Below are positions 33,330-60,697 of a stretch of 64,000 nt of DNA, one piece after another (the first letter of the stretch is position 1; every line of letters starts with the position of its first letter). The stretch is from Bolinopsis microptera (lineage: Eukaryota; Ctenophora; Tentaculata; Lobata; Bolinopsidae): the NCBI RefSeq assembly GCF_026151205.1, contig NC_087080.1, forward strand, positions 6,737,096-6,801,095, given 5' to 3'. The notes below the pieces were generated by a model. That model made no database searches. It saw nothing but the letters and a program-made list of their open reading frames with translations, and was not told the DNA's origin. The position numbers were made by a program, and so were the translations under genes.

Positions 33330-36300
33330 CTGAAATCGAAGATAATAAGCAACACATACAATAGAAATAAATTAAGTTAAAGATACAAGACGTAAAAAGA
33401 CGAGAAATCAATCCCCAAAATGACATCGCTTCATTAAAAACGGGATTTTTATAATAATTATGCTTCCTTAGCTTAATCACAGAGCAGTGCGAATTCATTA
33501 CATCAAAGCAATTAAATAATGTTATCGTTGGTGAGCCGACGGTGATGTCAAACAGTGATCACGTGACTCATAAACGCGCGTACAAATTCATTAGCTCGAT
33601 TATAATTGATATAAAAGCCACTCATATCTATTCGGTGTGTCATTCATTTGATAAACGCGAAGTTTACCTTGATATGCTCGTCCTCCCACTTGATGTTGAT
33701 AGTGTACTTTCCAGCTACTTCTGGGTTGTATCTACAGTTGACGGTCCGTTCTGCGCCCTTCCACATGTCTACTCGAAATTTGTCTTTAGGTCCGTTTACT
33801 CGCACACCTGTAATAGAGAAGGTCATAATTTTCCGCTTTCAATCTCGTACAGATTAGATAAAGAATTCACAGGCCCTAGTTCAGCAGCACTGCACAGTGA
33901 CCTGAAAATAACGTCTGTCTAAATAAAACTCAACTATAAAATGTTATACTTACTTAGTGTACCATGTCCAGCGTCTCTGGTGAAGACTTGGAAATCGCCC
34001 TGATCACCCACAAAACTGTCCATCAAGCCCGGACCCTCTGCCCATATCGCTTCCGGGTTACACACACGCACTTTAAAGGGAGAGTTTGGAATGTGGGATC
34101 CGTTGAAGTAAACGTTCACTAAGTACCTGAGATTATCATTCGTTATCAGCAGCGAAGTACATTCTCAGGAATGTATACACATAATACATATTATACAGAC
34201 GTCAGACATAAACAAATAATTTATTTTGAATTGTAGTTGACGAAGTGAGAGTCTCCACTCAGTGTGTTAAAACATAATTCTTTGTCGACGTTTCGGCTAC
34301 ATGCCTTTGTCATAGACAGGACGTATTGATAACTTACATAGCTGCAAAGTTACAATGTTAAAATAATCTATTAATATTACGAAATATTACAACAACAAAT
34401 AACATCTTGAAACCCATACAATGAACAATACAAGTGATAACGCGAATCAACCACGTACTCATTACATAGAATCCACATACCCCAAATACAACCGGAAAAA
34501 ATCGCGAAACAACGATCACAAATTTTTTCAAAAGAAACATATATAACGGCTAAAAGAATCCACACCGCATCAAGCCGTGAACAACCTCATAGAACTACAA
34601 ACATTTTACCAAGATAGCTCCTTCATAAAACTGAGTAATCAAAAATGATTTAGGTTAATAAGTTCAATATTACATTAACTTCCAACAAAGTGACAGCAAA
34701 TGCTACCAGTGCGATAAATCCTGCATGATCAAAAACATTTGCTACCAATTAATATGCCAGATATGTAATAAGTCCTACATTGGGGAAACTGGTAGGTTTA
34801 AAAGAAGTAGAGCCTGGGAACATTACAAATCAGTAAGGGATGGCAACAAATCTACGGCCATGGGAAAGCACTACCTAAAGGAGCATGCAGACATTTCAAT
34901 GCCAAACATACCGTTTCGGTTTATAGTTCGCAATAGATGCAAAGATTATGTGGACCGTCAATTGTGGCAGTCGGTTCTAATAAAACGTGAAAACCCAGAA
35001 ATAAACACTCAATTATCTGAGTCCGTAAATGAAGGTGATTGGATAAAATATACTCGGAAGTTAATGTAATATTGAACTTATTAACCTAAATAATTTTTGA
35101 TTACTCAGTTTTATGAAGGAGCTATCTTGGTAAAATGTTTGTAGTACTATGAGGTTGTTCACGGCTTGATGCGGTGTGGATTCTTTTAGCCGTTATATAT
35201 GTTTCTTTTGAAAAAATTTGTGATCGTTGTTTCGCAATTTTGCCGGTTGTATTTGGGGTATGTGGATTCTATGTAATGAGTACGTGGTTGATTCGCGTTA
35301 TCACTTGTATTGTTCATTGTATGGGTTTCAAGATGTTATTTGTTGTTCTAATATTTCGTAATATTAATAGATTATTTTAACATTGTTACTTTGCAGCTAT
35401 ATAAGTTATCAATACGTCCTGTCTATGACAAAGGCATGTAGCCGAAACGTCGACAAAGAATTATGTTTTAACACACTGAGTGGAGACTCTCACTTCGTCA
35501 ACTACAATTCAAAATAAATGATTGACCCACTCATAAGAGCAAAAAAAGATTACCAATAAACAAATAATGTTGAGGATAGCTCTTAGAATAAACTAGAGTT
35601 CAATAAAGCCTGCACTATTGATAGCTACATAACTCTCTGAACCATCTCCATCCTTTAACCGCAATAACATTGCCGCAATAGCATTGCCGCAATATACTAT
35701 TATTTGATTATTGTGTAAACTGTGTCCATCTACAAATACATAGATATATTTTCTGTGAAAGTATGACAAAGCGACCCGAACTCTTTAACCGTCATGTGCT
35801 AGCAACCTATCAATATATCACATTAAAAGTTGACCTTTTACAGCGTGACATGTCAAAACACTTGTCACGTTTTGTTCGTGTCTAGTCGTCTAATATTAAT
35901 ATCAGATTTGCAAATTCGCTTCCCTCAATCATCTGTAGATCCGCAGTGAGTTTTATAGTGTACCAGTTACGTCAATATTTAATGGTTAATTTGAACATTT
36001 GCAATATAATACGCTGTTACGCAGATCATTGGGAACTAATCAGAGGATAATACGCACCCTCACTGTTTGTTTTTGGATGAAAGCATCACTCTTAACGATT
36101 TGAGCAGTGAGGTTGAAACAAAGTTCGTATCCAAGACACACATTATATCATACACTGTGGTTGAGAGTATTGAAGATCGCGACTACAGTGCATAGGAGAA
36201 ATAAAATGTTCAACTTGTTATATATATAGATATACTATACGCTATGCGACTCCTAAACAGTGCTCCGCTAAATTACATACGTTATCAGAAATGCACTGTT

Positions 36301-44683: not shown

Positions 44684-47600
44684 CGTGTTAGCTACCCAAT
44701 ATTATAACCCATTCGATAACGTTTGGGCCAGGGCCAACGGACATGGCGCTATCTAAATGAACATGAACCTTGTGCAGGGGTGAACTTCAACTATATTAGA
44801 GCGATCATTCTCGTTTATTCTCTGCTTAATTTGATCAACAAATCCCAGGATTCCACAATTTTGGTGGATTTGAATTAAATGGGCCGATCATGGTCATGCT
44901 GCTATCTCAAATAACGTTACGAAGGGGTGGCCAATTCAAAGATGCAATATCTTAATTACTAGCTCAATTTAAGTTTTCACATCCTATCAGTTGTAAAATT
45001 ATGTTTGTAGTTGAAACTTGAAGAATTATATTGTTGCTTTACTAAGTATGTAACAGGGCGTTAGATGTAAATATATATATTTACATACTTAATTCAGCAA
45101 CATATATGTGACGAATCTTAAATAAAAAGCTACCAGTACAGAAAGGGTATAAGGGTAATGGTTTTAAAGTTAATGTTAGATTTAGGGTTAGATCAAGGGT
45201 TAGGTTTAAAGAAAGCAGCAGTGAGGATTTGGCAAAAACAATTATAAGTATTATATTATGTAGCGTAAGATTCAGTCTTGATTTGTTTCCAAGAAAAACA
45301 TATTGTCCAGAGTCAATAATATATCACAGGCTGTGGCTTGCATTCTTCGCCTTTGTTTTTGTAACCAGTAGTGTCGATTCCAAAGAGTTGTCACAACCCA
45401 GCATTAACGTTAACAACACCTGACAACACCTAACAACACCTAACAACCCAGTATTAACCCTAACAACTATCTTAACACCAGCAGCTCAAACAAGCCCGAG
45501 CATGTCCAAATGTGCTAACATGACCTTACAATCACAACTGAACTGCACCAGTCTGATGAACAGTACGGAGAGTATGACGGAGAGAGTGGTGGTGCTAGGG
45601 ACGTTGCTGGTTTCTACCATTGGTGGGATGATCGGTAACACGGCGTTTCTCCTCCTTGCTGATGTTTTTCTGCCATTTGATAGGGTTACTCTCGTTTTAT
45701 TTAGGTGAGAAGATACATTATTGAGACCGGTTAAGGGGGGGGGGGGGGGGTTCACCCTGATTTTTTTGTGAAACTTGGTTTCGAGATAGCAGTTGACCAA
45801 CAAACTAGGACCAGTGACCGAACTTTTGAGGGGGTCCCGGACCCCAACCGCCAAACGTTGCCCGCATGCCAGCCACGCCCATATTTGGTCCAAATTAGGC
45901 CCAATTTAACCAAATACCCTGATCATGCCCAAAATCCAGATTTTAAGTGCTCTACTTGTAGCTAGTGGTTCCCTGAACTCGTATATGAATTTTCATCAAG
46001 ATTGGACAAAAAATGACTGAGTTATGAGCAAAAAACCATATGACCATATTTGGGCATACGCACCAAATTTGATCGATTTTGGCCCATAAATTGGTCAAAT
46101 ATCAATATTTTTGAATGAAACCAACTTTATATGGAAGGTAAGCCTATACTACACATTATCTATGATTATCAGCTCAGTATCTACCTAATTGTGGATTCTA
46201 AGTTCAAATAATCGCAAAAAATGAACAAAACTGCCCATATCTCAGTTCGCGATATTTGCAAAACTGACTTCGCTCAAAACAATAGAACTCAATAGGGTTT
46301 CAATATTTTTTCATGAAATTTTCAGAATCAACGTAGAATTGTCTCATGACCTTAAGTTTTGGGACAGAATTTTTGGCGGCCAAATTCTAAATTTAGCAGT
46401 GCAAATTTTGGAATTTAGCCGCCAAATTTTTTTAAAGGCCTAACTTAAAATTCTGTCTCAAAACTTAAGGTCATGAGACAATTCTACGTTGATTCTGAAA
46501 ATTTCATGAAAAAATATTGAAACCCTATTGAGTTCTATTGTTTTGAGCGAAGTCAGTTTTGCAAATATCGCGAACTGAGATATGGGCAGTTTTGTTCATT
46601 TTTTGCGATTATTTGAACATAGAATCCACAATTAGGTAGATACTGAGCTGATAATCATAGATAATGTGTAGTATAGGCTTACCTTCCATATAAAGTTGGT
46701 TTCATTCAAAAATATTGATATTTGACCAATTTATGGGCCAAAATCGATCAAATTTGGTGCGTATGCCCAAATATGGTCATATGGTTTTTTGCTCATAACT
46801 CAGTCATTTTTTGTCCAATCTTGATGAAAATTCATATACGAGTTCAGGGAACCACTAGCTACAAGTAGAGCACTTGAAATCTGGATTTTGGGCATGTTCA
46901 GGGTATTTGGCTAAAGTGGGCCTAATTTGGACCAAATATGGGCGTGGCTGCCCCGCGGGCACCGTTTGGCGGTTGGGGTCCGGGACCCCCTCAAAAGTTT
47001 GGTCACTGGTCCTAGTTTGTTGGTCAACTGCTATCTCGAAACCAATTTTCACAAAAAAATCAGGGTGAACCCCCCCCCCCCCCCCCCCCCCCCCTTAACG
47101 AGTAAGCTAGACGATTTAGATGTCGTCTTGTTCGAATTTTTGTTGTATTTTTATCTTTGCTAATAATTAAATATTTCACTTGGCAGGCAGATATCGATAG
47201 GAGACCTTGTGACCATCTCTGTGACACTGTTACCAGCATTTCCTACACACTTATTGCGGGACTGGGGGTTGGGAATCACCGTTTGTTACGTCTCTGCTTA
47301 TGGGTTCCTGGTGCCGTGGCTAGCTAAACTAGGCTTCTCACTCTTCAGCTCCATTCAGAAGTTAATATAGTTAAAATGGTTGCATTTCAGAAAATAAACA
47401 GAAGGGCAAAAACTGCACATTTTTGTTTTAGTTCTATATTTGTTTTAGGACGATTTAGAATTTGAAAAAATTTGTATTATTATCTGATAGGATACGTTTT
47501 TAAAAGTGTAAAATTCAGGTGTTTGATTTGGAGGCGCCCGCTAAATCAGCTACTGATAAGAAACAAGAAAGTGTTTACAGTGAGCATTATGATCTGGATA

Positions 47601-50600
47601 GGAACAACTGGATGGATCACATACACTTTACTTGCAAAGTATTGACCGCTGAAATTTATTGGGACAGGAGCGTGTCTAATGTTTGCCAAAACTTTTGGGA
47701 TGAATTTAGAAATGTTAATGCACGATTTCGCAGTTAAATATCAACTTGCACTTTAAAATAACTTGATATCAGAGAATGTAAAATGTAAATGTTATCTCCT
47801 TGCGCAGATTAATAGGTTGGCGATCTTGAGATCGTGGTATTCAACAGGATTTAAAGTTTCCAATTTCAATGATAAAATTAATCGCTATTTTCAGAGTGGA
47901 AACAGAGTTCAATAGCAGTATGGAGCTATGTGTGCTATCCTTCAAGGGAGAATACAGGATATCCTTTCTCATCATAATAAGCCTGATCATAATATCAACC
48001 ATCCTCCTCTTCCTTATCAATTCCTACTGCTGGAGAGTCGTCAGCAATGTGGCTCAGAGGTTTAAAAATAGTTGCTTCACAGGAGGTCATATGTTCCAGA
48101 ACAAATGTCAACCATACACCAGAGATGAAGTGGATGTGGATAACGAAAATAATAATATTGGTAATAATATTAATTTTGAGGAAAACCTGACCACCCAAAT
48201 GGCTAAAAACACATCACTGTATGCGACCCCAACGTACAGTGAACCAACCATGATAAACATGCTGAGCGATGAACCTCGAAAACCAGATGCTGAGAGTGCA
48301 CCAACCTCTCCTCGGTTAGAATCAGGGGCAACATCATCTTTTAGTAGAACAGAAGATGAGCTTACAAGGAAACGAAACAGACTTCCATCACTGAAAGATA
48401 GAATAGTAGTGATGGTGGAGCGGGACCTGATAGTGCGGAATGACAGCGTAGTAACAGAGAACAGCACACCACGTACCTCAATGTCCAGTTACAGCCGCAC
48501 AGTGGATTTATACCGGTACAAGACCGAGCGGGAGAGAAAGGGGAAGGTGTTTTACCGGGGTTTAGTAGGGGTGTCAGGGGTAACCACGGTCTTTCTTGTC
48601 ACCTGGCTGCCCGTTATGTCGCAGCTCTTGCTTGCTGTGTTGTCTCAGAGTTTCAATATTTCGCCACCCCCATGGCTGGACAAGGTGGTGTTGTTTGCCA
48701 CGGGGATTGGGGTGTGGTGCAGCTTGTTCGTCTATTGGAGAGTTCGTTGACGCAGATAATACAATAAAACCCAGGTTTATCGTACCCCGATTTACTGTTA
48801 ACACAAATTTACTGTACCTCGTTTCTTTGCTCTCAAGATGTTTTTAAAAATGTCAACATGTTAATTGTTAGTTTGATATCACGTGATCATTCAAAACAGC
48901 TATACGTTTTCTTATCCCCAAAGTGAACGGTAAGTTGGGGTTTCACTGTACATAAATATTAAAAAAAAAGGAAATTATTCGTTAAGTAAAGAATTTGCGT
49001 CCTTAAAGAATAAAGATAAGCTAAAGTTTTACAACATCAATAATCATTCGTTAAATAAAAGAGATTTTTTAAATAAAAGAGATTTTCGCTGGTTTTCAAG
49101 GCAAGTTCTTCTTATTCTGGATACTGTGTTGAGCCGTACATTTTTGTTGCCTACAGGTTTTCAGCAATATTATGTTTTCATTTTAAACCTATGCTGACTG
49201 CCTCCAATCCGACGCGACGTGGAAGAAATTTTTTGAGTTCTGTCACAGTGTGTTTTTCAATTTGGTATCAAAGTATTAATAACGACGAACAGTTATTTTT
49301 CTAATATTTTAGAAACGAAATCAATATACATGTCATTAGATTGTATAATGTAATTGTACATGAAGTATAATGTATATTTTATATTATATGTTTCTGTAAT
49401 TTATTGTTAAAATACTAATTAATTATGCAGTTTTATGCATTTATGTAGCATGTATGTTATGTATTTATTCTTAAACGTAAATGAAAAAAAAATGGTTTGA
49501 GTTATATCCTCAGTACTCACTTCATTTAATGAAATCTTAGTAATCTTTGATATTAAAAGCTTCTAAAAAATGTCGCGTCCTTAATAAATTCATGTGGAAT
49601 AAACGTTCCAGAATTGAATGAGAATATTGCAGCTGTTAATCTCCTGAGGATAGAGGCATACTCAGAGTTCTGGGTTCTGGGCCTTGATGTCAGCTGTAAT
49701 TTAGCCAGTATTTAGCCAGTATTTAGCCAGTATTTAGCCAGTATCGCTACCTAATGTTTTCTGCACATCAGCATTATTGGGTACTGGATAGAAGGCTGCA
49801 TAATTCAGCAAATCCAATGAATATGCCCTCAGCCACGCACTATTTATCACAAAGCCCAGGTTGAACTTCTTGTATAACTCCAGTCCATTCCAAACGATTG
49901 GGAGTATGTCAAGTGCTGATTGACAGATGAACTATGAAGAAGAGTAAAAAACCATCAGAATAGTAACTGAGACAAGGCGAGACGTTCCCAGGTCGATATC
50001 ATTAAAAATATGTCGTATATTATTATATCTGGGTGAAATATGTCGTGGTTTTTATCACCCGATGGGGCATGTTTGTGCGGCTTTCCGGTCAGATATTTGA
50101 TTGATTAACAAAGCTCATAACAATACTACTCTAATGAATAGTGCATACTGCATCACCGTCACAGTTTGAGCTGAGTTGTATTTCACAGAGGATCGGAACT
50201 GAATAAATTAAAGAAACTTGATATCTTCACTTCTCACTCCTCACTGTGATATTCTACATTGGTGAAACCTGGTTCACTATATCAGGAGGGAGTTCTGCTA
50301 CCATTATAATATTAATTTTAACCTCTTCTTCATTGTAATATATTTTAACCCCAGCTCTCGCGTTGTTTAGAGCAGGCATCCGAAATATTTACCCAGAACT
50401 AATCAACAATCGCCATTTGCCGATAATGAGCTTTAGTTGTGCAGTTCTGAGTGGACAAGCCCCAGCTATGGTTGACCTAAATAGTGTATTTAAATTAAAT
50501 TTAAGAAATGTGACTTACCTTGGATATTAGCAGTAAGATGACCTACTCCAGCGGTTTGAGCGTTTACTAAGAACTCTGCTGGCCAACCAGGCCTGGCGAT

Positions 50601-53600
50601 GTGTATTCCTTCTCCTGGGGGGCAACGGTCATTTAACAAGCGTGTAAATAACTTCTGATAGATTCCATCATTCTTTTTAAATTACCAAACAGCTGCTATA
50701 ATTACTGCTAGTAGATATTGTCAGTTCTATCTTGCTCTTTTTAATATCTTATCATGAGGTCATAAGATACCCAAAATAGCCCAATGTTATCAGCTCAGAT
50801 ATAAGAAAAGCAAACATACCACTGAGATCACATCTAGTAGCTTCTGGAGGAGTAAAATATACCAAAATAAGCAAAAATAAGACTAATTGATAATCAGATG
50901 CCATCAAGGCGGTATCCAAGAAGTCTGACCAGAATTCCTCGTGGAATTCTCCGTGAACCCTAACCCTAACCCAAACCATAATCATAACCCTAACCATATT
51001 CCACTTAGAGATAGTGGAATTCCACTATCGCATCGGGCTTCTTGGAAAGCACCCAAACCAATGACTCTAAAGCTCTAACAAAACACAGCTGACATACCGC
51101 TGACTACACATCTGGTAGCATCAGGAGGTCCCAGAACTACAGCCTTGAAGGGGGACCCTGGCACATGTTGTTCAGCCCACGTGACCGATATGATTAGGTC
51201 TATAAACTGGTTAGGAACGTAGGTTACACTGTATTCTCCTAGACCCAGGTCTTCTATCAGAGGCTGTGGAGGGGTTGTATCAAATAATATTATAGTTGTC
51301 AGGGAAAGGTTGTTCTGCGTGAGTTGATAATCATAAACGCCCTTATTAGCTAATTACCAATCAACAGGCAGAGATAATGTGAGAAAAAAGTTTTCCCCGT
51401 CGAAATGGTTAAACCGGACCTTAATTAACTTAGCAATTTTTAGTTGGTATTCATGAATACTATGCAGTTTATTCCATCTTTTTATTGATTATATATTAAA
51501 CGTGGTAAGAGGAAAATGTGGTCACGTAATTGATGCTGAGATAATATTGAAACGGGTTAATGAAGTTCTGTTACAAGGTGTTAACGATCATCAAACTGAT
51601 ATGTTGATATCCATACATTGATTAATCTTAAAACCTGGCAAACGAACTTTTCCCACTAGAAAACTAATCTAACTCACGACAATAGGTTCGCTGCCAGGGT
51701 TAGATATCTTAACATGCAACTCTCCCACCCCAGCATTCCCTGCATGAACTGTAAACTTGGAAGGTTCGCCCAGGGTACCTCGTGTCAGTCCCAGACCTGA
51801 TGCGATGCAGCGCTGTGCTGTGTTCTCCGCATAGCCTGATGTTATCTTGCTGTTCTGAGGGGTTTTTGTTGTCGTCAAAATTTAAACCTTTTACTTGCAG
51901 TGAGCTTATCCCACAGGGTAATTAGAAGAATAAATTAATATTTGCGGAGTAAATTTTGTTGTCCCATGCAGGCTGGAACTTGCAACCGATAAATTGGCAG
52001 TAAGAACATGATGCCATCATAATAATACCACCGACCTCTGGCCCTATGTTCACATATTATCTTGCTAGAACTTAGCGTATTTTACTAAGAAACAACTGCT
52101 TTCTCAGTTCTCACCCTAAATTGCCACATGTAAGTAGCCATGTTCAGCTCTGTAATCTCGTGATTCATGAACTCCTCCACCTTTATTCTAGGGAACACTC
52201 CCAGCGCATCATACGCGATCTTCAAACCAGTCTTAACATTTTCCTCCGCTGAGGGAACAAGGTGAGTTGTCGTTAAATCATAAAAAACAAGTTCAACAAA
52301 ATATTATGTAGGTATTGTTCAAAGAGAATATCCGAATCACACCAATTGTCTAACAACAAAAACGTTTACAGCTCCCTTACAGCTCCCCTACAGCTCCCCT
52401 ACAACTCCCCTACAGCTCCCCTACAGCTCCCTTACAGCTCCCATACTGCAGCTCCCCTACAACTCCCCTGCAGCTCCCCTACAGCTCCCCTACAGTTCCC
52501 CTACAGCTCCCCTACAGCTCCCCTACAGCTCCCCTACAGCTCCCCTACAGCTCCCCTGCAACTCCCCTACAGCTCCCCTGCAGCTCCCCTAAAACTCCCC
52601 TACAGCTCCCCTACAGCTCCCCTGCAGCTCCCTTACAGCTAGTACAGCTCCCCTACAGCTCCCCTACAACTCCCCTACAGCTCCCCTACAACTCCCCTAC
52701 AGCTCCCATACAGCTCCCCTACAGCTCCCCTACAACTCCCCTACAGCTCCCCTACAGCTCCCCTGCAGCTCCCCTACAGCTCCCCTACAGCTCCCTTACA
52801 GCTAGTACAGCTCCCTTACAGCTCCCCTACAGCTCCCCTGCAGCTCCCTTACAGCTCCCCTACAGCTCCCCTACAGCTCCCCTGCAGCTCCCTTACAGCT
52901 AGTACAGCTCCCCTACAGCTAGTACAGCTCCCATACAGCTCCCCTACAGCTCCCCTGCAGCTCCCTTACAGCTAGTACAGCTCCCCTACAGCTCCCCTAA
53001 AACTCCACTACAGCTCCCCTACAGCTCCCCTACAGCTCCCTTACAGCTAGTACAGCTCCCATAATGCAGCTCCCATACAGCTCCCCTACAGCTCCCCTAC
53101 AACTCCCCTACAGCTCCCCTGCAGCTCCCCTAAAACTCCCCTTCAGCTCCCCTACAGCTCCCCTACAGCTCCCTTACAGCTAGTACAGCTCCCATAATGC
53201 AGCTCCCCTACAGCTCCCCTACAGCTCCCCTACAGCTCCCCTACAGCTCCCCTACAGCTCCCCTACAGCTAGTACAGCTCCCATACTGCAGCTCCCCTAA
53301 AACTCCCCTACAGCTCCCCTACAGCTCCCCTACAGCTCCCCTGCAGCTCCCCTACAGCTCCCCTACAGCTCCCCTACAGCTCCCCTACAGCTCCCTTACA
53401 GCTAGTACAGCTCCCCTGCAGCTCCCCTACAGCTCCCCTACAGCTCCCCTACAGCTCCCCTACAGCTCCCCTACAGCTCCCTTACAGCTAGTACAGCTCC
53501 CATACTGCAGCTCCCCTAAAACTCACCCGTATCAGGGCTAACATCATCCATATTCTCCCAACTACCAGGTGCCAGAGCCTCCACTAGGTAGGCCAGGTTC

Positions 53601-56600
53601 ACACCGTTATTCCAGTCTAGTGTCAGATTCTCAATACTCCTGGAGAGGTTTTTGTGGTGAGACTGAGGCACAAAATCATTTCTTTCAACATCTATCAACA
53701 CAAACCTTTCAACATTAATTATTAGTTAGTAGTTCACCTGTGAGGTACTTTGGCACGGAGCCAAAATAGAAGATTGTTGAACAGTTGAGTGTTGAAGCAG
53801 CTGACATACGTCATGATACTGAGTTCGTCGACCTCGGGGTTAGCCATGTCGTCTGGAGCTAGCAGAGCTGGGATACTCAGTTCCTCTTCTGCTGTCTGAG
53901 GTGAGAGGGTCATTTTTGGTCACAAACAGGGGGAGGTCATTCATTGGCCACGAGATAATAATATGATACTTTAAACGGAATTCAATATAACAATACTTAC
54001 GGCATTGATAATTGAGCATCCTGAAAGACTAAATGTCTAAGTAAAGTTGTCATGAAACTTAGTAAAACTATAAGCTAACCTGCATAGCAGAGGTGATGTT
54101 TTCCACAGCGTTGTTCTCATCTAACAGGTTCCAGTCAGGTATTGAACCAGGTAAGCAGGTTTCAACTAGTGCTGAGAGTGCACGACCGTTGTTCCAGTCC
54201 GTCGTGAAGTTCTTTATGTTGGATTCTGGGATCACCGCCTGCAAGAAAGAAAAAAAACCATTATTTCGCCGTAATTAATTAATAGTGTTAAATATTTATA
54301 TCGTATTCGTTTGAGACTTTTAAAATTATCATGAAACATTAATGATCGTGCTATAAGACATTTTTTGTTTTTTTAATCCTTTCATTGAGCCTAAAATTGT
54401 GCATATCGCTATATCGGAAATTTACCTGTATCCAGTCGAGCATGGCTCTTTTGGCGTCTTCAGCTTGTATGTGATATTTCTGAATGAGCATCCAAACCAG
54501 TCCTAGTATCAGCTTAACATTGCCTCCCATTATTTCTTCGTTTGCTGAAATCATTGATGTTAGCAATTAATATCCTGAATTAGAATAGAAGTCTGTAAAG
54601 CAAATTCATATTCTTTGAAAAATAAAAGATTTCATTTCAAGGATCCTCTAGGATGTCACAAATTTCGCTCTAAATCTCGTTACTATTACGTAAAACAATT
54701 AGTACTCCTACTATTAATCTCACTAAACGTGTAAACTCCCTCGCTATAATATAGCGAGGGAGTTATATTATAATAGAAGGCCCACAAAACGGCCCCAGTA
54801 TAACTGATAGCTAGACTCACAAGTTTCAGTAAACTCCTGATCCACGACCCTCTCCTCCACCAAAAAACCCAAGAAATTCTTCCAGTTCTCCTCCTTCTGC
54901 TGCTCCGTCTCGCACTCCTCGTGGTACTTGAACGGTAGCTCTTTCTCCCTGCACACTTCCACCAGTGCTATCAGTGGGGCAGCAGTCTGCAGGTCCCGGA
55001 CCAGGGACCTCACCAGGGGCTTCTGGGCCTTTACTAGCTTGTTGTTCATCCATCGTATGAAGGTGTGAGCTTGGATACGCGGGGAGTTTTGCATCGTCTG
55101 TTTACTTTTTGCAGTGTTGTGATTATGTGGATTCAGAGGGGATACGTAGGGGGGCATTCACAGGGTACCCTGATATTTTACTCTTATCTTTTCAACGGGA
55201 TTTGCTGGTGTATCTCGTTATTTTTAAAGAGATATTGCGGTCTGATCTATCTTGTTGGAAGAGAGAATCAGAGAATGGAGCAGTGATTTCTGGATCTTCT
55301 TGCTAGAGAGCTAGAGTAACGTGTCACACACAGAGATTAACAGTAAAATAAGTTATATATAACAAGCGGTGTAATATATGAAATATATCACTAGTGCACT
55401 GAAATCCGGATCAAATTTTGCTAAAATAAGCAAACAAAAAATAAACTTTAGCTACGAATAAATTCTTACGATCGATAAATTAAACATAGTAAACTCAAAA
55501 ACAAGTGTCCCGTGATAAAGGAATGATTGTAGCGTACTACGTTCGTATGATAATAAATATTAAAGGTAAAAGTAAAATGAGGCTTTCTGATGTTTTAAAC
55601 AGAAATGTCTCAATATACTGGACTTAGTAGATGATATTGTGTTTTAATGTAAAGGAAGGTTAGTTGCAGCCTGTAGGAAAATTAACACTTGAGTAACACA
55701 ATCTATCTCTTTAAAAAAAATCTATGTCGGACAGTAATCTGTCAACTGTTATAATATTTTGAATAAAGCTAGAAGCAGTATAACGTATTTATAAGTCAAT
55801 GATGCATATCTAAAAATTTAGAATATGGAAAATGACAATAAAGATGAACTGGTTTTTTGTACTTGATGATAAAAATAAGCCCTAAAAATAAACCCTCTAG
55901 ACCAATAAAAAGGCCATAAAAGCGAATGGTAGAAGATCAAGAATGTAACACTGAGTAAAGGAAGTAGAACTTGTCTTCCTAAGCAATAATCAGCCTAGCT
56001 TAGCTACAACCTTATTTGGAAAAGTGCCCATTATGTAAACAAAAACTGTGCACAGTCTATGCAATGATGTCGTCATACATGATACTTGTCTACGTTACAA
56101 CTTCTTGGTGCCTCAGTATGTATAGACCAGGTGTTTAGTATGGTGAACCACCGCATATTATGCTAAATCTAGAGTAAGTTATACTGAACATGAATATTGT
56201 GCTAACACTGAAAATAACCACGAAATCTTGTTTCAAGCTACTGTTCTAACTGGCTACATAACAACTAAACACTATAACGGAACGAACCAAAGATTAATCT
56301 AAAATACTACTTTATACTTTATCAAAACCACTCCCAGATACAATACCACACAAAATGTAACAGACCGACTTTCCGCGGTACAATATCTTTCATAACAACA
56401 CAACTTTCAACAATACAACTCAAAGAAACTAATTAAGTTTTCACAGTTCTGAATAACGTCATGAGAAGGTACGGCGTAACGCTCAGCATTCCCGGCACAG
56501 ACATATATAATAATAATATCTTACAATACAAAAACACAACAACAATAGCGCACACAGCTAACTTTGCATATAAAAACTACATGGGTCCAATGCAATGGTA

Positions 56601-56648
56601 GGAGTCCGCCATATTGTCTTAACCGGAAGGGAGAGCGAGCGAGAGAGA

Positions 56649-56704
<56 letters not shown>

Positions 56705-59700
56705 AAATGTGTACTCTCTTAGCTGTTAGCGTTCTTTCTGCGCTAACAACTGATATTTTAATGGCCGTGAGTTACACATATCCCCCAGCAGCTACAGTTA
56801 CAGCTTTATGCCGTGCTAGAGGTACCAATTACGTTGTTGCACAGTGCAAGTGGTCACGTTGAGTGAATTGGGTTCTAAAGAGAGAAAGAGAAAGAGTCTA
56901 GGTTGCATGTGCTGCACTAATTTATACCGCTCGATCCCTGGGTTAAGTAGTATCTCAATTGTTCTCTTCATAACATGTTACAGCTTTACAGGCGCTTGTT
57001 TCATAACAAGTTACAGCTTTACAGGCGCTTGTTTCATAACATGTTACAGCTTTACAGGCGCTTGTTTCATAACATGTTACAGCTTTACAGGCGCTTGTTT
57101 CATAACATGTTACAGCTTTACAGGCGCTTGTTTCATAACATGTTACAGCTTTACAGGCGCTTGTTTCATAACATGTTACAGCTTTACAGGCGCTTGTTTC
57201 ATAACATGTTACAGCTTTACAGGCGCTTGTTTCATAACATGTTACAGCTTTACAGGCGCTTGTTTCATAACAAGTTACAGCTTTACAGGCGCTTGTTTCA
57301 TAACAAGTTACAGCTTTACAGGCGCTTGTTTCATAACAAGTTACAGCTTTACAGGCGCTTGTTTCATAACATGTTACAGCTTTACAGGCGCTTGTTTCAT
57401 AACAAGTTACAGCTTTACAGGCGCTTGTTTCATAACAAGTTACAGCTTTACAGGCGCTTGTTTCATAACAAGTTACAGCTTTACAGGCGCTTGTTTCATA
57501 ACAAGTTACAGCTTTACAGGCGCTTGTTTCATAACAAGTTACAGCTTTACAGGCGCTTGTTTCATAACATGTTACAGCTTTACAGGCGCTTGTTTCATAA
57601 CAAGTTACAGCTTTACAGGCGCTTGTTTCATAACAAGTTACAGCTTTACAGGCGCTTGTTTCATAACAAGTTACAGCTTTACAGGCGCTTGTTTCATAAC
57701 ATGTTACAGCTTTACAGGCGCTTGTTTCATAACATGTTACAGCTTTACAGGCGCTTGTTTCATAACAAGTTACAGCTTTACAGGCGCTTGTTTCATAACA
57801 AGTTACAGCTTTACAGGCGCTTGTTTCATAACAAGTTACAGCTTTACAGGCGCTGTTTCATAACAAGTTACAGCTTTACTGGCGCTTGTTTCATAACAGG
57901 TTACAGCTTTACAGGCGCTTGTTTCATAACAGGTTACAGCTTTACAGGCGCTTGTTTCATAACAAGTTACAGCTTTACAGGCGCTGTTTCATAACAAGTT
58001 ACAGCTTTACTGGCGCTTGTTTCATAACAAGTTACAGGTTTACAGGCGCTTGTTTCATAACAGGTTACAGCTTTACAGGCGCTTGTTATGAACCTGGATT
58101 TGTTAAGACTGAACAAAGCTTCCTTAGTTCTCTTATACAGCTGTTATACACAGCTATCTGTACTGATTATGGCCAGATAATATAGCGTATTATAGTGTAT
58201 GCCCTACGATTTACTAAGTATATCGTGAACAACCAGAAGCTGAGTATTGAGATATAGCCTCACTTCACAGGATCTGCTGCAGGTATTCAACAAGTTTCTT
58301 GTAACTGCAGCGGGGGCCATCCAGTCTTATATGGGCCACCCTGGATTATTCATACATGTAGTTGCAGCCTGATACGAATAACCATCTTATTTAACCGATC
58401 GTTAACAATATAAAATATACAATATACATCCAGTCTTATATGGGCCACCCTGGATTATTCATACATGTAGTTGCAGCCTGATACGAATAACCATCTTATT
58501 TAACCGATCGTTAACAATATAAAATATACAATATACATCCAGTCTTATATGGGCCACCCTGGATTATTCATACTATGTAGTTGCAGCCTGATACGAATAA
58601 CCATCTTATTTAACCGATCGTTAACAATATAAAATATACAATATACATGCAAGAAACAGGTAGTGGGTGCCATAACAAGGTACAATAAAAACAGGCGACA
58701 GTAATCACACACAGATAGTACAAAGGAAATTAAATAATTTACACGATTAAAATCATCACTACACCAGCTCCTGCTCGTATTATAATCACACGAATAAAAG
58801 CAAGCAAAGGGGGGAAAAGAGGAGGAGGAGGAGGAGAACGGTTAAATATATGACGAGGAGAGCAACCTGTAGTAGGTCTACACACTGGACATAATGTAGG
58901 TGTGTCGTTAGTGAGGCTATTGTGGGGAGGCAGTGGAGAGAATGACGCGACGGGGAAATCACCATCGTACCACCACTCTGAAAGAGAAGATAGCACTGTA
59001 CTATAACACACACACACACACACACACATACACATTACACGTGTGGTAGGTGATGAGTATCATGGGGCGGCGTGTCACGTGTTCTATAACAAGAGCCCGG
59101 TATGATGGTTATTTATACATAGTGCCCACTTTATAACACATGAATATATTAATGGCAGTGAGGGTGGGGAGGCAGCAGGCGTGGAAACTAAGTGAAACTC
59201 AGGTCTCGGACAATCTTACATGAATAAATTCACACGAATCTCACGTGCTGCAAAGTGCAGATTTCATTTAGATGAACTAAGTGAGAACAAAAGAACGCTC
59301 AATTTCTAAAATATTTCAAGAATGAAAAACTAAAGGGGGCACTCACTGTCCAAGTTGAAGCACAAACAAAGATATAAAAAATTCAGAAAACTGAATTCAA
59401 GTTTTTAAAGAACTCTAAAAATGTAAAACAAAGGGCTCTCCCTATCGGAGTTTAAACACAAACAAACAGAAACAAGTTATCGAAAAAGCAGACGAAATAG
59501 CTTACAAAATAAAAATTGGAATACATAATAAAGAAACACACTACAACGTCCGGTCCGTCCTAATGGCGTAGCTGCGTAGATTAAAGCGGAGCTGATGGTA
59601 TATATATATATATAATAGACAGATGAACCAAGAGTAAGTAACCAGAGTAAGAGAGAGTACTGTAAATATATATATGCTAGCTCCAAGCAGCAGAGCTAAT

Positions 59701-60697
59701 ACAATTCTCAGTCGTAGCATAGGTACAGGACAAATGGTTTAATATCGTAATTGTATAATGTATCCTGGATACAGTGTTTAGATTTGAGGGAGGGAGTATT
59801 ATAAGTGAACGTAAAGTATTTTAAATGGAACGTAAGGCAAGAACTTTCTACTAGGGAAATTTGTAAATTTAGGATTCGATCACCGTGGTTAAGTAAGACA
59901 GGTGCAGTCAACAGTTTTAGTTAAATACCAAAATTATACGTTTTGAGATATAACAAAGTAGGTAGGACAGCAGACTTAAATATAACCAATACTGAGTACT
60001 GATGCAATGTAGAAATGACGTAAAACTGGAATGACATGTGGCAGCGATCAGCTAATAACCCTGTGGTAACGACCAATCAAATTCGTAAATCGCAGTCACG
60101 TGTCTAAACAAATGACGTGACTCCTCCCGATATTGAAGTATATTTTACTTACACATAGCAGTTAAGTTGATCCCTTCAGCGGACATGAATTCAAGAGCAA
60201 TAGACAGGTTTTCCAGTTTCTGAGCGTTGGATTTGGGAGATTTGTGGTATTTAAGTTGTACACCAGTGAGATATTCCAGTAGGATTAACAGGGTGACTCC
60301 ACTTTCCAAGTCTAAGGGAAAAAGGGTGGTTTAGATTTGTTGGGAAGATAAATTATTGTTGTTCCCTATCTCGTATTAAAGCAATTATACTAATTTTAAC
60401 AGATTAACTAATTAACCAATTAACTAATTAAAAGATTAACTAATAAGCAAATTAACTAATAGGCAAATTAACTGATCTAATTTTTAATTATGGACTAACT
60501 AAACGTATTACAACTGTCAAATTATATAATTAATTATTGAATATAACAACTGATTGTTTGCCCATACCAATGAAGATGTCGTCAATAAGCGGGGATCCCC
60601 TGCGGTTGAGGGCACTGTTGCACCACCTGGTAAAAGTCATCTCCTGGATCTCCAGGAACCTACCCCGCTCCACTTTGTGGTCTATGAGTACAGACAT
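33264..60697 (-). CDS. Filamin-like actin crosslinker, three CH domains and four Ig repeats (whole gene)
   Basis: Sixteen phase-compatible exons give about 738 aa. CH1 (about 15-135) begins MTFTRWCNSAL and ends NVKLILGLVWMLI. CH2 (about 130-225) carries NFTTDWNNGRALSALV and ends with SIMTYVSCF. CH3 (about 230-338) repeats the CH2 pattern: NLTLDWNNGVNLAYLVEAL, ending TELNMATYMWQF. Four filamin-type Ig repeats follow (about 345-735), each ending in a PxSPF motif: VPGSPF, VPGSPF, IPNSPF, then GSPFTI. CH pairs bind F-actin; in known filamins the repeats form a flexible rod that dimerises at its C-terminal repeat. Classical filamins have two CH domains; three CH domains are known from invertebrate jitterbug-type filamins, which this resembles, though only four repeats is short. 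A second version of the first half of CH1 exists (54821-55094). One intron hosts an antisense GPCR gene. Transcription start, UTRs and isoforms are not visible. Confidence 0.88.
33668..33807 (-). CDS. Filamin exon 15 (Ig repeat 4)
   Basis: It lies between CTATTACAG and GTAAAC sites, phase 1 to phase 0. CRYNPEVAGKYTINIKWEDE is the standard Y.P...G.Y.I.I.W motif of filamin repeats. Confidence 0.9.
33954..34126 (-). CDS. Filamin exon 14 (Ig repeat 3 end, repeat 4 start)
   Basis: It lies between AATCTCAG and GTAAGT sites, phase 2 to phase 1. YFNGSHIPNSPFKVRV closes repeat 3; AEGPGLMDSFVGDQGDFQVF opens repeat 4. Confidence 0.9.
34725..35069 (+). pseudogene. GIY-YIG endonuclease C terminus of a Penelope-like element
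   Basis: The frame of up to 114 codons contains CQICNKSYIGETGR (the YIG half with Cys residues), an Arg-Glu-His patch (RSRAWEHYKSVRDG), a KEHA motif and NPEINTQLSE near the end, all as in PLE endonucleases. The last codons lie in the right arm. The first GIY strand is partly kept. Without a reverse transcriptase it is not an autonomous gene. Confidence 0.8.
35423..35452 (+). ncRNA. Degenerate hammerhead-ribozyme-like motif in PLE arm
   Basis: CTATGACAAAGGCATGTAGC followed by CGAAACGTCG resembles the hammerhead core: CUGAUGA-like box, a GGC/GCC stem with loop AUGUA, then GAAAC. Such ribozymes are known in PLE terminal repeats. The first box departs from consensus, so cleavage is doubtful. An inverted copy is at 34286-34315. 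Confidence 0.45.
36781..38078. mobile_element. Mutator-like (MULE) DNA transposon, internally deleted
   Basis: Terminal inverted repeats of about 170-180 bp (outer AGACTTTGGG, inner GATGTGATCCATGGATTG and GAAATGGGCTAGATCTGGGG) bound the element. ATCTAAAT flanks both ends (36773-36780, 38079-38086); one more base mismatches, fitting an originally 9-bp MULE duplication. It carries a transposase C-terminal fragment on the minus strand. Confidence 0.82.
37064..37660 (-). pseudogene. MULE-type transposase C-terminal fragment
   Basis: From ATG at 37660, 198 codons include YFEKTYLGSAI, PLEFWNHFASIL and RTSNMVEGFHRGFKTRV, the pattern after the catalytic core in MULE transposases (Y..T..G, WN, N..EG.H). 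The DDE core and zinc-binding N terminus are absent, so it cannot catalyse transposition alone. There is no internal stop, suggesting a young deletion derivative. Confidence 0.75.
38247..39055. mobile_element. 0.8-kb palindromic (fold-back) element
   Basis: GGGTGGGCCTCAAAAGTCTA at the left end is matched by its complement at the right end. Inverted identity continues through CGCTGAGATCTCACTAATTA and CATGATCCATCG almost to a central loop near 38610-38680. TATA flanks both sides. No coding capacity. The right end is 50 bp from filamin exon 13. Confidence 0.8.
39105..39293 (-). CDS. Filamin exon 13 (Ig repeat 3)
   Basis: It lies between TATTTCAG and GTGGGT sites, phase 2 to phase 2. ESIELDVDTQEAGDGQLAAV and GPKGDAVPVEI are typical filamin-repeat strands. 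Confidence 0.87.
42489..42569. mobile_element. Pogo-like transposon end with internal palindrome
   Basis: CAGTAAAACCCCGATTTACC after a TA dinucleotide is typical of Tigger/pogo-type ends. Its complement follows within 35 bp (GGTAAATCGGGG, twice). The opposite terminus is not clear, so this may be a truncated or folded MITE. Confidence 0.6.
42566..43997. repeat. Compound minisatellite and polypurine block
   Basis: The block begins and ends with GGACATAGACGGAC followed by a TGACACCCC stretch. It contains GGACATTGGCGGACTCGGAC units (42655-42830), an almost pure purine GGA-rich tract (about 42836-43680) and CGCCTATGTC units (43850-43945). A 36-bp segment reading CCTGTCCTTTTTGGATTCTA and beyond occurs near both ends. 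It ends 16 nt from the filamin exon 12 donor. Confidence 0.85.
44014..44128 (-). CDS. Filamin exon 12 (Ig repeat 2 end)
   Basis: It lies between TTCCTGCAG and GTGCGC sites, phase 1 to phase 2. FVYWCNEPVPGSPFLVHVEE is the last strand pair of repeat 2. Confidence 0.87.
44532..44612 (-). CDS. Filamin exon 11 (Ig repeat 2 middle)
   Basis: It lies between ATATTTCAG and GTAAGT sites, phase 1 to phase 1. PNVEIEEYAEGKFRGTYIAK matches the mid-repeat G.Y...Y pattern. A 47-nt cytosine run (transcript sense) ends about 24 nt upstream of its acceptor. Confidence 0.85.
44637..44683 (+). repeat. 47-bp guanine homopolymer
   Basis: Forty-seven consecutive G on the plus strand read as C in the filamin pre-mRNA and end about 24 nt before the exon 11 acceptor, so they occupy the polypyrimidine-tract position. 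The exact length may be affected by assembly. Confidence 0.95.
45502..45704 (+). CDS. GPCR exon 1 (N terminus, TM1)
   Basis: ATG at 45502 opens 67 codons and ends in phase 2 at AG|GTGAGA. The glycosylated N terminus and VVVLGTLLVSTIGGMIGNTA fit TM1. Confidence 0.7.
45502..48750 (+). CDS. Rhodopsin-like GPCR, nested and antisense, TM4 not found (whole gene)
   Basis: Three phase-compatible exons encode a receptor-like membrane protein. The N terminus has NMT, NCT and NST glycosylation sites. TM1 contains the GN pair (GGMIGNTAFLLL). TM2 has ISIGDLVTISV, then an extracellular Trp, the conserved Cys of TM3 and a hydrophobic TM3. Exon 3 has a Cys-bearing loop, TM5 (FLIIISLIIISTILLF), an intracellular loop of about 150 residues, TM6 with FLVTWLP (the CWxP position) and a TM7 ending VYWRVR with no NPxxY. 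The chain after TM3 stops at the DRY position, and exon 3 resumes before TM5, so TM4 is missing. Either one exon in the 534-bp intron is unrecognised or the gene is decaying. The ligand is unknown. Confidence 0.65.
45731..47098. mobile_element. 1.37-kb palindromic element flanked by TTAA
   Basis: The left arm starts TTAA then 16 G; the right arm ends 24 C then TTAA. The arms are near-perfect inverted copies for about 670 bp each, meeting near 46405. TTAA targets are typical of piggyBac-type insertion, but there is no transposase. Mirror-image frames of about 65 codons in both arms are not genes. It forms most of GPCR intron 1. Confidence 0.85.
47187..47360 (+). CDS. GPCR exon 2 (TM2-TM3)
   Basis: Acceptor CTTGGCAG; the first base completes the split Arg codon. 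It reads through TM2, the loop LLRDWGLGITVC and TM3. A GTTAAT donor at 47361 gives phase 2, which matches exon 3. Unspliced, it stops three codons later at 47370. Confidence 0.68.
47895..48750 (+). CDS. GPCR exon 3 (TM5-TM7)
   Basis: Acceptor CTATTTTCAG; it runs from VETEFNSSMELC through TM5, a long charged third loop rich in Ser/Thr, TM6 and TM7 to TGA at 48750. Loop length and composition resemble amine- or peptide-type class A receptors, but this is weak evidence. Confidence 0.75.
48762..48948. mobile_element. Pogo-like MITE in GPCR 3' flank
   Basis: CAATAAAACCCAGGTTTATC at the left and GGGGTTTCACTG at the right are imperfect inverted repeats, each next to TA. It begins 11 bp after the GPCR stop and its left end supplies AATAAA (48763-48768), a possible poly(A) signal. 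Confidence 0.68.
50519..50614 (-). CDS. Filamin exon 10 (Ig repeat 2)
   Basis: It lies between CCCCCCAG and GTAAGT sites, phase 1 to phase 1. GWPAEFLVNAQTAGVGHLTA is the repeat's B-D strand region. The next intron is 5.9 kb and hosts the antisense GPCR gene. Confidence 0.88.
50820..50843 (-). pseudogene. Possible 24-nt filamin micro-exon or duplicated exon tail
   Basis: Between CTCCTCCAG and GTATGT sites, 24 nt would add EATRCDLS in frame between exons 9 and 10. The sequence copies the tail of exon 9 (DATRCVVS followed by the same GTATG donor). It is either an alternative micro-exon or the relic of a local duplication; I lean to relic. Confidence 0.4.
51098..51263 (-). CDS. Filamin exon 9 (Ig repeat 1 end, repeat 2 start)
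   Basis: It lies between TCCACAG and GTATGT sites, phase 0 to phase 1. GEYSVTYVPNQ and VTWAEQHVPGSPFKAVV are the closing strands of repeat 1; DATRCVVSG begins repeat 2. Confidence 0.9.
51678..51854 (-). CDS. Filamin exon 8 (Ig repeat 1, first half)
   Basis: It lies between CCCCTCAG and GTGAGT sites, 59 codons in phase 0. ASGLGLTRGTLGEPSKFTVH and GNAGVGELHVKISNP follow the G.GL..G......F.V...AG.G.L.V pattern of filamin repeats. Confidence 0.9.
52115..52248 (-). CDS. Filamin exon 7 (CH3 end)
   Basis: It lies between TTCCCTCAG and GTGAGA sites, phase 1 to phase 0. LKIAYDALGVFPRIKVEEF and TELNMATYMWQF correspond to the last CH2-type helices. Confidence 0.88.
52360..53520 (+). repeat. 11-bp minisatellite, about 100 copies
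   Basis: Units of CAGCTCCCCTA vary at a few positions (CTTAC, CTGCA, CTAAAA, CATA) with an interspersed CTTACAGCTAGTACAG variant at intervals. It fills almost all of filamin intron 6 and abuts the exon 6 donor. Apparent plus-strand frames of about 100 codons are repeat translations. Confidence 0.95.
53527..53681 (-). CDS. Filamin exon 6 (CH3)
   Basis: It encodes SIENLTLDWNNGVNLAYLVE, the CH2-type core of the third CH domain, then a GTGAGT donor in phase 1. The intron before it is only about 56 nt, with a CTAAC branch-type motif. A second acceptor 24 nt upstream (53705) would leave a 32-nt intron and add eight residues. Confidence 0.85.
53738..53895 (-). CDS. Filamin exon 5 (CH2 end, CH3 start)
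   Basis: It lies between CACCTCAG and GTGAAC sites, phase 0 to phase 2. LSIPALLAPDDMANPEVDEL and SIMTYVSCF close CH2, and NNLLFWLRAKVP begins a third CH domain in the same exon. Confidence 0.88.
54080..54238 (-). CDS. Filamin exon 4 (CH2)
   Basis: It lies between TCTTGCAG and GTTAGC sites, 53 codons in phase 0. IKNFTTDWNNGRALSALVET is the core CH2 helix. Confidence 0.92.
54426..54544 (-). CDS. Filamin exon 3 (CH1 end, CH2 start)
   Basis: It lies between GATTTCAG and GTAAAT sites, phase 1 to phase 0. It encodes NEEIMGGNVKLILGLVWMLI, the most conserved end of type-1 CH domains, then the linker and AMLDWIQ opening CH2. Confidence 0.92.
54821..55094 (-). CDS. Filamin alternative first exon (divergent CH1, version b)
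   Basis: One exon encodes the same portion of CH1 as exons 1 and 2 together: IQAHTFIRWMNNKLVKAQKP, then RDLQTAAPLIALVEVC, ending in phase 1 at GTGAGT with the same split base (T). Exon 2 ends in phase 1 while no phase-matching acceptor opens this exon, so it should start its own transcript rather than be joined after exon 2. The ATG at 55094 is preferred; an in-frame ATG at 55157 is possible. It lacks the Asp-Gly of the usual DL.DG helix turn, so its actin affinity may differ. An inactive relic is the alternative. Confidence 0.7.
56637..56698 (+). repeat. GA microsatellite
   Basis: About 30 GA dinucleotides with few interruptions precede the 33-bp minisatellite. Confidence 0.95.
56969..58088 (+). 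repeat. 33-bp minisatellite, about 34 copies
   Basis: The unit is CATAACAWGTTACAGCTTTA then CAGGCGCTTGTTT, with A/T/G variation at one site (AAG, ATG or AGG). Because 33 is divisible by three and two frames lack stops, two long plus-strand frames of about 339 codons arise. They are repeat translations without flanking gene signals. Confidence 0.95.
58318..58645 (+). repeat. 109-bp tandem repeat, three copies
   Basis: Copies start at 58318, 58427 and 58536 with CATCCAGTCTTATATGGGCC; the spacing is exactly 109 bp twice. Copies are nearly identical, implying a recent duplication. Confidence 0.95.
60153..60311 (-). CDS. Filamin exon 2 (CH1 version a, second part)
   Basis: It lies between TTTCCCTTAG and GTAAGT sites, phase 1 to phase 1. 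DLESGVTLLILLEYLTGVQL and ENLSIALEFMSAEGINL match CH1 helices of filamin and alpha-actinin, and the end continues smoothly into exon 3. Confidence 0.88.
60568..60697 (-). CDS. Filamin exon 1 (start, CH1 version a)
   Basis: ATG at 60697 sits in GCCGCAATGT, a good context, with an in-frame stop upstream. It encodes 43 codons including EIQEMTFTRWCNSALNRRG, the classic CH1 opening. The donor is GTATGG, phase 1. Confidence 0.82.

Follow-up and report, generated by a model that had tools for sequence, protein, structure and literature searches.

Two alternative front halves of the first CH domain suggested for a single filamin-type gene of a ctenophore

The sequence of the locus analyzed here points to one filamin-type gene in which the front half of the first CH domain (CH1) is encoded twice, by two alternative first units, one made of exons a1 and a2 (version a) and one consisting of the single exon b (version b), both joined to one and the same exon 3, and we consider this reading probable for the gene, which we take to be from a ctenophore. 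The presence of two alternative CH1 first halves within a single filamin gene is well supported by the features described below; that exon b is transcribed and spliced onto exon 3, where the 5' end of its transcript comes from, and what it does to actin binding, we infer from these features.

The window, by which we mean the entire stretch of 64,000 nucleotides that was analyzed, is part of contig C9 of a 264.65-Mb genome, and the exons and repeats assigned to the gene are listed in Table 1. The translation of a1 and a2 reads MSVLIDHKVERGRFLEIQEMTFTRWCNSALNRRG...GINLTAM, that of exon b reads MQNSPRIQAHTFIRWMNNKLVKAQKP...VVDQEFTET, and exon 3 begins with SNEEIMGGNVKLILGLVWMLIQKYHI.... Between a2 and exon 3 lies an intron of approximately 5.6 kb that contains exon b, whose donor is separated from exon 3 by 276 nt, in phase. 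For exon 6, an acceptor at 53662 was considered and rejected, as it broke the frame, which is mended by the acceptor ctctccag/GAGT (exon from 53639). The earlier note on this DNA had proposed that the exons at 60153-60697 and the exon at 54821-55094 encode the same part of CH1 with very different sequences, and its coordinates, phases and junctions were confirmed, the two halves being 32.6% identical over 86 aligned residues. Its further proposal, that both versions finish on a T, in phase 1, and continue in frame into exon 3, was likewise borne out, with GT-AG junctions, one common acceptor, and translations of both the a1+a2 route and the b route free of stops through exon 7. The same note had spoken of a shared CH1 end, and while exon 3 is indeed common to both versions, the common part takes in CH2 and a third CH domain as well.

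Table 1. Features of the filamin-type gene in window coordinates; the designation of the exons as parts of one gene, with b as an alternative to a1+a2, is the reading proposed here.
Feature	Position	Strand	Description
Exon a1	60697-60568	(-)	130 nt, phase-1 donor GTATGG; start codon (GCCGCAATG) and first CH1 piece of version a; CH1 model 38.8 bits
Exon a2	60311-60153	(-)	Acceptor CCCTTAG, donor GTAAGT; remainder of version-a CH1 front half, ABS2' KYHKSPKSNAQKL, net charge +4; CH1 model 77.3 bits
Exon b	55094-54821	(-)	274 nt, donor GTGAGT; putative one-exon alternative CH1 front half, ABS2' FKYHEECETEQQKE, net charge -3
Exon b, upstream in-frame extension	55157-55095	(-)	Reaches an earlier ATG (55157), with an in-frame TGA immediately before
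Exon 3 (common to both)	54544-54426	(-)	Acceptor TTTCAG; CH1 end with most of ABS2 and GLVW motif, CH2 start
Exon 4	54238-54080	(-)	Middle of CH2
Exon 5	53895-53738	(-)	CH2 end and CH3 start
Exon 6	53639-53527	(-)	CH3; acceptor ctctccag/GAGT
Exon 7	52248-52115	(-)	CH3 end
Filamin Ig-type repeat, first half	51881-51672	(-)	Open-frame limits, not exon limits; PF00630 29.5 bits, above cut-off
Filamin Ig-type repeat, second half	51353-51075	(-)	Open-frame limits, not exon limits; PF00630 36.6 bits, above cut-off

Pfam CH recognizes three CH domains in each of the two spliced proteins. Downstream of the CH exons, two of the seven minus-strand frames pass the PF00630 cut-off and one further frame gives a weak match (15.5 bits); of the ten frames subjected to this test in all, these same two, both on the minus strand, are the only ones above the cut-off. 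When the CH1-CH2 parts of the two forms, two queries that consist mostly of the same residues, are compared with the sequences in PDB, the nine best distinct sequences are filamin A or B for both, with best scores of 170.8 bits for form a and 143.0 bits for form b, followed by alpha-actinin-2 at 141.5 and 98.1 bits, respectively; the matches include 2wa5, 3hop and 6d8c, actin-binding domains (ABD) of filamin A/B, as the nearest solved relatives of both forms. By these sequence criteria the locus is one filamin-type gene, with the three-CH layout known from jitterbug and FLN-2. Another filamin-repeat match (35.4 bits) is found at 33668-33883 (-) of the window, with three in-frame stops, perhaps reflecting read-through of an intron, and the gene may extend that far.

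Upstream of b, the a2/exon 3 intron carries a 33-bp minisatellite of 34 copies with 97% matches (56967-58087), adjoined by three copies of a 109-bp unit (58318-58648), and the intron between exons 6 and 7 is mostly occupied by approximately 103 copies of the 11-bp unit TACAGCTCCCC (52367-53489). Opposite the filamin gene, at 45424-48750 (+), open frames of 94 and 306 amino acids show hydrophobic stretches by eye; neither has a Pfam match at E 0.1, and these frames possibly represent a nested gene. In the same region, a near-identical frame of 76-79 amino acids (HPDFFVK.GFEIAVDQQTRTSD...) is present in two opposite copies approximately 1 kb apart, at 45735-45965 (+) and 46855-47094 (-), probably a repeat element.

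As to the nature of exon b, it is recognized as a CH sequence on its own, both when the 265-Mb genome is scanned in six frames with Pfam CH (30.6 bits, E 6.9e-5) and at the protein level (32.0 bits, E 1.5e-7, compared to 42.9 bits for a1+a2). A CH1 model built from version a, a paralogous filamin of the same genome (L003, at C8:14.55 Mb) and human filamin B (FLNB), with b left out, matches exon b at 49.1 bits, and in the window and 17.5 kb past its ends this model recognizes, at E <= 0.01, exons a1, a2, b and 3 and, weakly, exon 6 (CH3), with no additional alternative CH1 halves detected within these limits. In pairwise comparisons b scores 34.8 bits with FLNB, 31.4 bits with a and 29.2 bits with L003, so that a is not its closest relative. 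The codon log-odds of exon b in its frame amount to 48.4 bits, compared to a maximum of 12.3 bits among 2000 local noncoding windows; since another frame of exon b, interrupted by one stop, also reaches 18.5 bits, part of this signal reflects composition. The probability of 91 open codons arising by chance is 0.3% given the local noncoding composition and 1.2% given the composition of b itself. Of the 27 core columns of the N-terminal half with hydrophobic residues in all of a, L003 and FLNB, 23 are also hydrophobic in b (none of 20,000 permutations performed as well), and 18 of the 23 residues invariant among these three sequences are retained. At the sequence level, the halves encoded by a and by b each complete the same CH fold. 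With the core and the invariant residues kept despite the low identity to a, exon b looks like a fold maintained under selection, and not like a fresh or a decaying copy. An alternative would be that exon b is an unused relic of a partial tandem duplication that has stayed intact by chance, and it does reside in an intron that also carries the tandem array of 33-bp units, but an unselected copy that has diverged to this degree from a should have decayed, and the open frame, the strong codon bias and the retained core all argue against such a relic, as does the presence of a GTGAGT donor, the minus strand of the 64-kb window carrying 28 sequences of the type GTRAGT. We regard this alternative as distinctly unlikely.

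No close second copy of b, either as a haplotig or as a donor gene, is found in the genome, the three matches listed being b and two CH1 relatives with weak scores (E 0.097 and 0.149). The paralogous filamin L003 possesses a single CH1, encoded by two exons, within the 9.5 kb examined, and its second exon is continuous across the position of the a2/exon 3 intron. The genome also contains a gene for a tandem-CH protein (L002, C12:7414598-7416526 (+)), with four CH matches in a single open frame of 3586 amino acids. Filamin-type repeats are numerous in the regions C7:12341908-12360404, C8:5736919-5755453 and C12:5692116-5813507, where they lie in open frames of great length (up to 3914 amino acids).

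The 5' end of b allows for more than one interpretation. Upstream, the frame of b stays open as far as an earlier ATG, at 55157, which immediately follows an in-frame TGA, and the N-terminus of version b is thus not fixed, with candidate start codons at 55094 and 55157. The earlier note had stated that b possesses no acceptor in the phase that exon 2 would need, and this holds for the likely acceptors: in an acceptor model trained on eight accepted sites, which themselves score 1.3-13.1 when each is left out in turn, the AG at 55097, three nucleotides ahead of the 55094 ATG, scores -0.2, and joining a1 or a2 at this position results in a frameshift and a stop. As a general statement it needs correction, as five AGs (55069, 55033, 54967, 54955 and 54940) out of the 32 in 55157-54821 do have phase 1, all scoring 0.2 or less (0.2, -2.5, -2.3, -8.0 and -19.1, respectively). 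If splicing from a1 or a2 made use of one of these sites, part of b would serve as an internal exon, resulting in a hybrid or duplicated CH1; nine of the ten possible joins would be open (5 of 5 from a1, 4 of 5 from a1+a2), but the sites score 0.2 to -19.1 versus 1.3-13.1 at the accepted sites, the products all duplicate or miss parts of CH1, none of them giving an intact domain, and the start codon of b and its CH-like N-terminus would be left unexplained, making this a highly improbable interpretation. Exon b could also belong to another gene on the same strand, not joined to exon 3, as it has a possible start and an upstream region of its own, but the CH domain that it encodes stops after the front part and has to be completed by a back half, for which exon 3, a short distance away and in phase, is the next match, no other CH back half being found with the CH1 model in the window and 17.5 kb past its ends; of the interpretations weighed here we hold this one the least probable. 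Given the poor scores of all five phase-1 AGs, the likeliest role of exon b is that of an alternative first exon.

The earlier note had gone on to predict two promoters, and this inference is not a necessary one, as the genome contains spliced-leader genes, which could provide an alternative route to the 5' end of b. These genes were searched for with a pattern based on the spliced leader of Hormiphora (PMC8527503), later refined from its first match in the genome. The initial pattern recovered one copy, with 3 mismatches, followed by GTAAG, and the refined pattern, TTTCAACACT..AATTTGAG/GTA.GA, matches 144 genomic copies, 49 forward and 95 reverse, compared to 0 for the backward control, with none of the copies inside the window. 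The genome is taken to be that of a ctenophore possessing such genes, and the spliced-leader-like genes here closely resemble the leader of Hormiphora, which is reported to be carried by 56% of Iso-Seq reads (PMC8527503). Among the places listed, those at C3:13511052-13533423 and C5:21341872-21352057 carry spliced-leader genes in tandem, with periods of approximately 591 and 857 bp, and scattered single genes are also present.

With spliced-leader genes in the genome, trans-splicing could form the 5' end of b, and a second promoter would not be obligatory. The same two isoforms could thus be produced from one promoter upstream of a1, a long pre-mRNA being either cis-spliced, to give form a, or trans-spliced upstream of b, to give form b. 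Consistent with this are the 144 spliced-leader-like genes, so similar to the leader of Hormiphora, a report that C. elegans fln-2 has several SL1 sites and inner starts (PMC3143143), and the passable AGs upstream of b, the best of which in 56900-55098 (-), at 56874, 55950, 55302 and 56111, score from 7.3 down to 5.5 in the eight-site model. However, trans-splicing would also be compatible with a separate promoter, and AGs scoring at least 6 are common (153 of 3546 on the minus strand), so that neither argument discriminates; the upstream AGs at 55302-56874 are therefore only candidates, for either a spliced-leader acceptor or a 5'-UTR acceptor, and no acceptor or promoter stands out in the scan of 56900-55098. 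A choice between cis- and trans-splicing is in our view quite possible, if not what we would favor; it differs from the preferred reading, of two alternative first units in one gene, solely in the origin of the 5' end of b, and the likelihoods that we assign to the two overlap.

Regions of actin contact were transferred onto the alignment using the residue numbering of filamin A. The contacts described for filamin A are ABS-N (Leu35-Lys42), ABS2' (Arg91-Leu104) and ABS2 (Val122-Trp142) (PMC9132340), and the same three regions are given elsewhere (PMC7688639; PMC7714767). By alignment transfer, ABS-N and ABS2' map to the exchanged exons, and of ABS2 approximately three residues are exchanged, the remainder being encoded by the common exon 3. 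The net charge of ABS2' is +4 in both version a (KYHKSPKSNAQKL) and filamin B, and -3 in version b (FKYHEECETEQQKE). The comparison was based on CH1-model matches with E <= 0.01 from loci covering the 40 CH places of the genome-wide scan other than C8:14714120, C8:17904977 and C12:7412943, with C12:7416263 included in part, and from one additional locus (L023), amounting to 22 aligned rows, of which the 12 that do not cover the segment were dropped. Among the 10 rows that cover the segment, the nine other than b (eight from this genome, including a, plus FLNB) carry charges of +2 to +6. At the position of the ABS-N tryptophan, version a has Phe, and version b has Ser or a gap, depending on the alignment. 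Another feature, an Asp-Gly turn, had been put forward in the earlier note as present in CH domains of the a type and lacking in b. Version b indeed reads TAAP, departing further from FLNB and the paralogue L003, both of which have Asp-Gly at the CH1 turn, but version a reads DLESG (Ser-Gly) and also lacks Asp-Gly, and the turn was discarded as a feature distinguishing a from b.

In the CH1-CH2 proteins studied, it is CH1 that makes direct contacts with actin, and in utrophin alterations of the N-terminal flank and of ABS2 shift localization and the sensing of filament states (PMC7688639). Considering this role of CH1, the reversal of the ABS2' charge leads to the prediction that form b would bind F-actin more weakly, or would bind other filament states. 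A difference in affinity between the two forms, as suggested in the earlier note, is thus plausible, on the basis of the charge reversal and not of the Asp-Gly turn.

The following scheme can be proposed. A transcript beginning, or capped by trans-splicing, near 60.7 kb would include a1 and a2 and skip b, and a transcript with its 5' end upstream of 55.1 kb would start on b; each unit would provide the CH1 front as far as the beginning of ABS2 and would be spliced onto exon 3. The swap would exchange ABS-N and ABS2', with most of ABS2, CH2, CH3 and the repeats staying constant. Form a, with the usual basic ABS2', would be expected to bind F-actin like other filamins, and form b, with an acidic ABS2' on a retained fold, may bind F-actin more weakly, recognize different filament states, or have another partner. 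A bolder conjecture, to which we give little weight and which may well be wrong, is that the gene switches its grip on actin via the front half of CH1, that the CH1 of form b avoids ordinary F-actin in favor of another filament state or partner, and that the choice is made by spliced-leader trans-splicing and not by a second promoter.

Among the titles and abstract openings surveyed on alternative exons of filamins and CH domains, on ctenophore filamin and on jitterbug isoforms, none describes this locus or a swap of a filamin CH1 half, and exchanges inside a CH domain by means of alternative exons seem to be rare, the authors of a study on smoothelin (SMTN) reporting no further case of alternative exon splicing giving variable CH domains (PMC10643981). 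In smoothelin, the alternative exon E20 varies the back half of CHD2 (helices IV-VI), and the gene described here would be similar in that alternative exons vary half of a CH domain while leaving the rest of it unchanged (PMC10643981). It would differ in that smoothelin has a single C-terminal CH subject to cassette splicing, and what is exchanged here is the front half of CH1 in a filamin ABD, probably through a first exon. Another example is presented by plectin and filamin A, which, as cited in the same study, also possess alternative exons at an N-terminal CH (N-terminal exons in plectin, alternative first exons in filamin A), but these lie beside the CH domains, adjacent or near, and here they would lie inside the CH fold (PMC10643981). 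A third example is Drosophila jitterbug and C. elegans FLN-2, whose layout of three CH domains and poorly conserved filamin repeats (PMC3143143) is shared by this gene. FLN-2 has several internal starts, and the variants described include FLN-2C and FLN-2D, without the ABD, and FLN-2B, with a shorter rod (PMC3143143), none of these being a swap of a CH1 half as proposed here. Compared to the ABD of filamin A/B, most of ABS2 is retained, in the common exon, unlike ABS2' and the ABS-N tryptophan position, the former acidic and the latter occupied by Ser or a gap in form b. As the exchanged part comprises two of the three filamin-actin contacts, the third being encoded mostly by the fixed exon, the gene would offer a natural dissection of how CH1 reads actin, and its occurrence in a spliced-leader animal raises the question of whether trans-splicing can select protein domains. 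In conclusion, alternative exons are known beside CH domains, in plectin and filamin A, or inside the back half of a CH domain, in smoothelin, and the putative swap of the front half of CH1 in a filamin would be a new addition to these.
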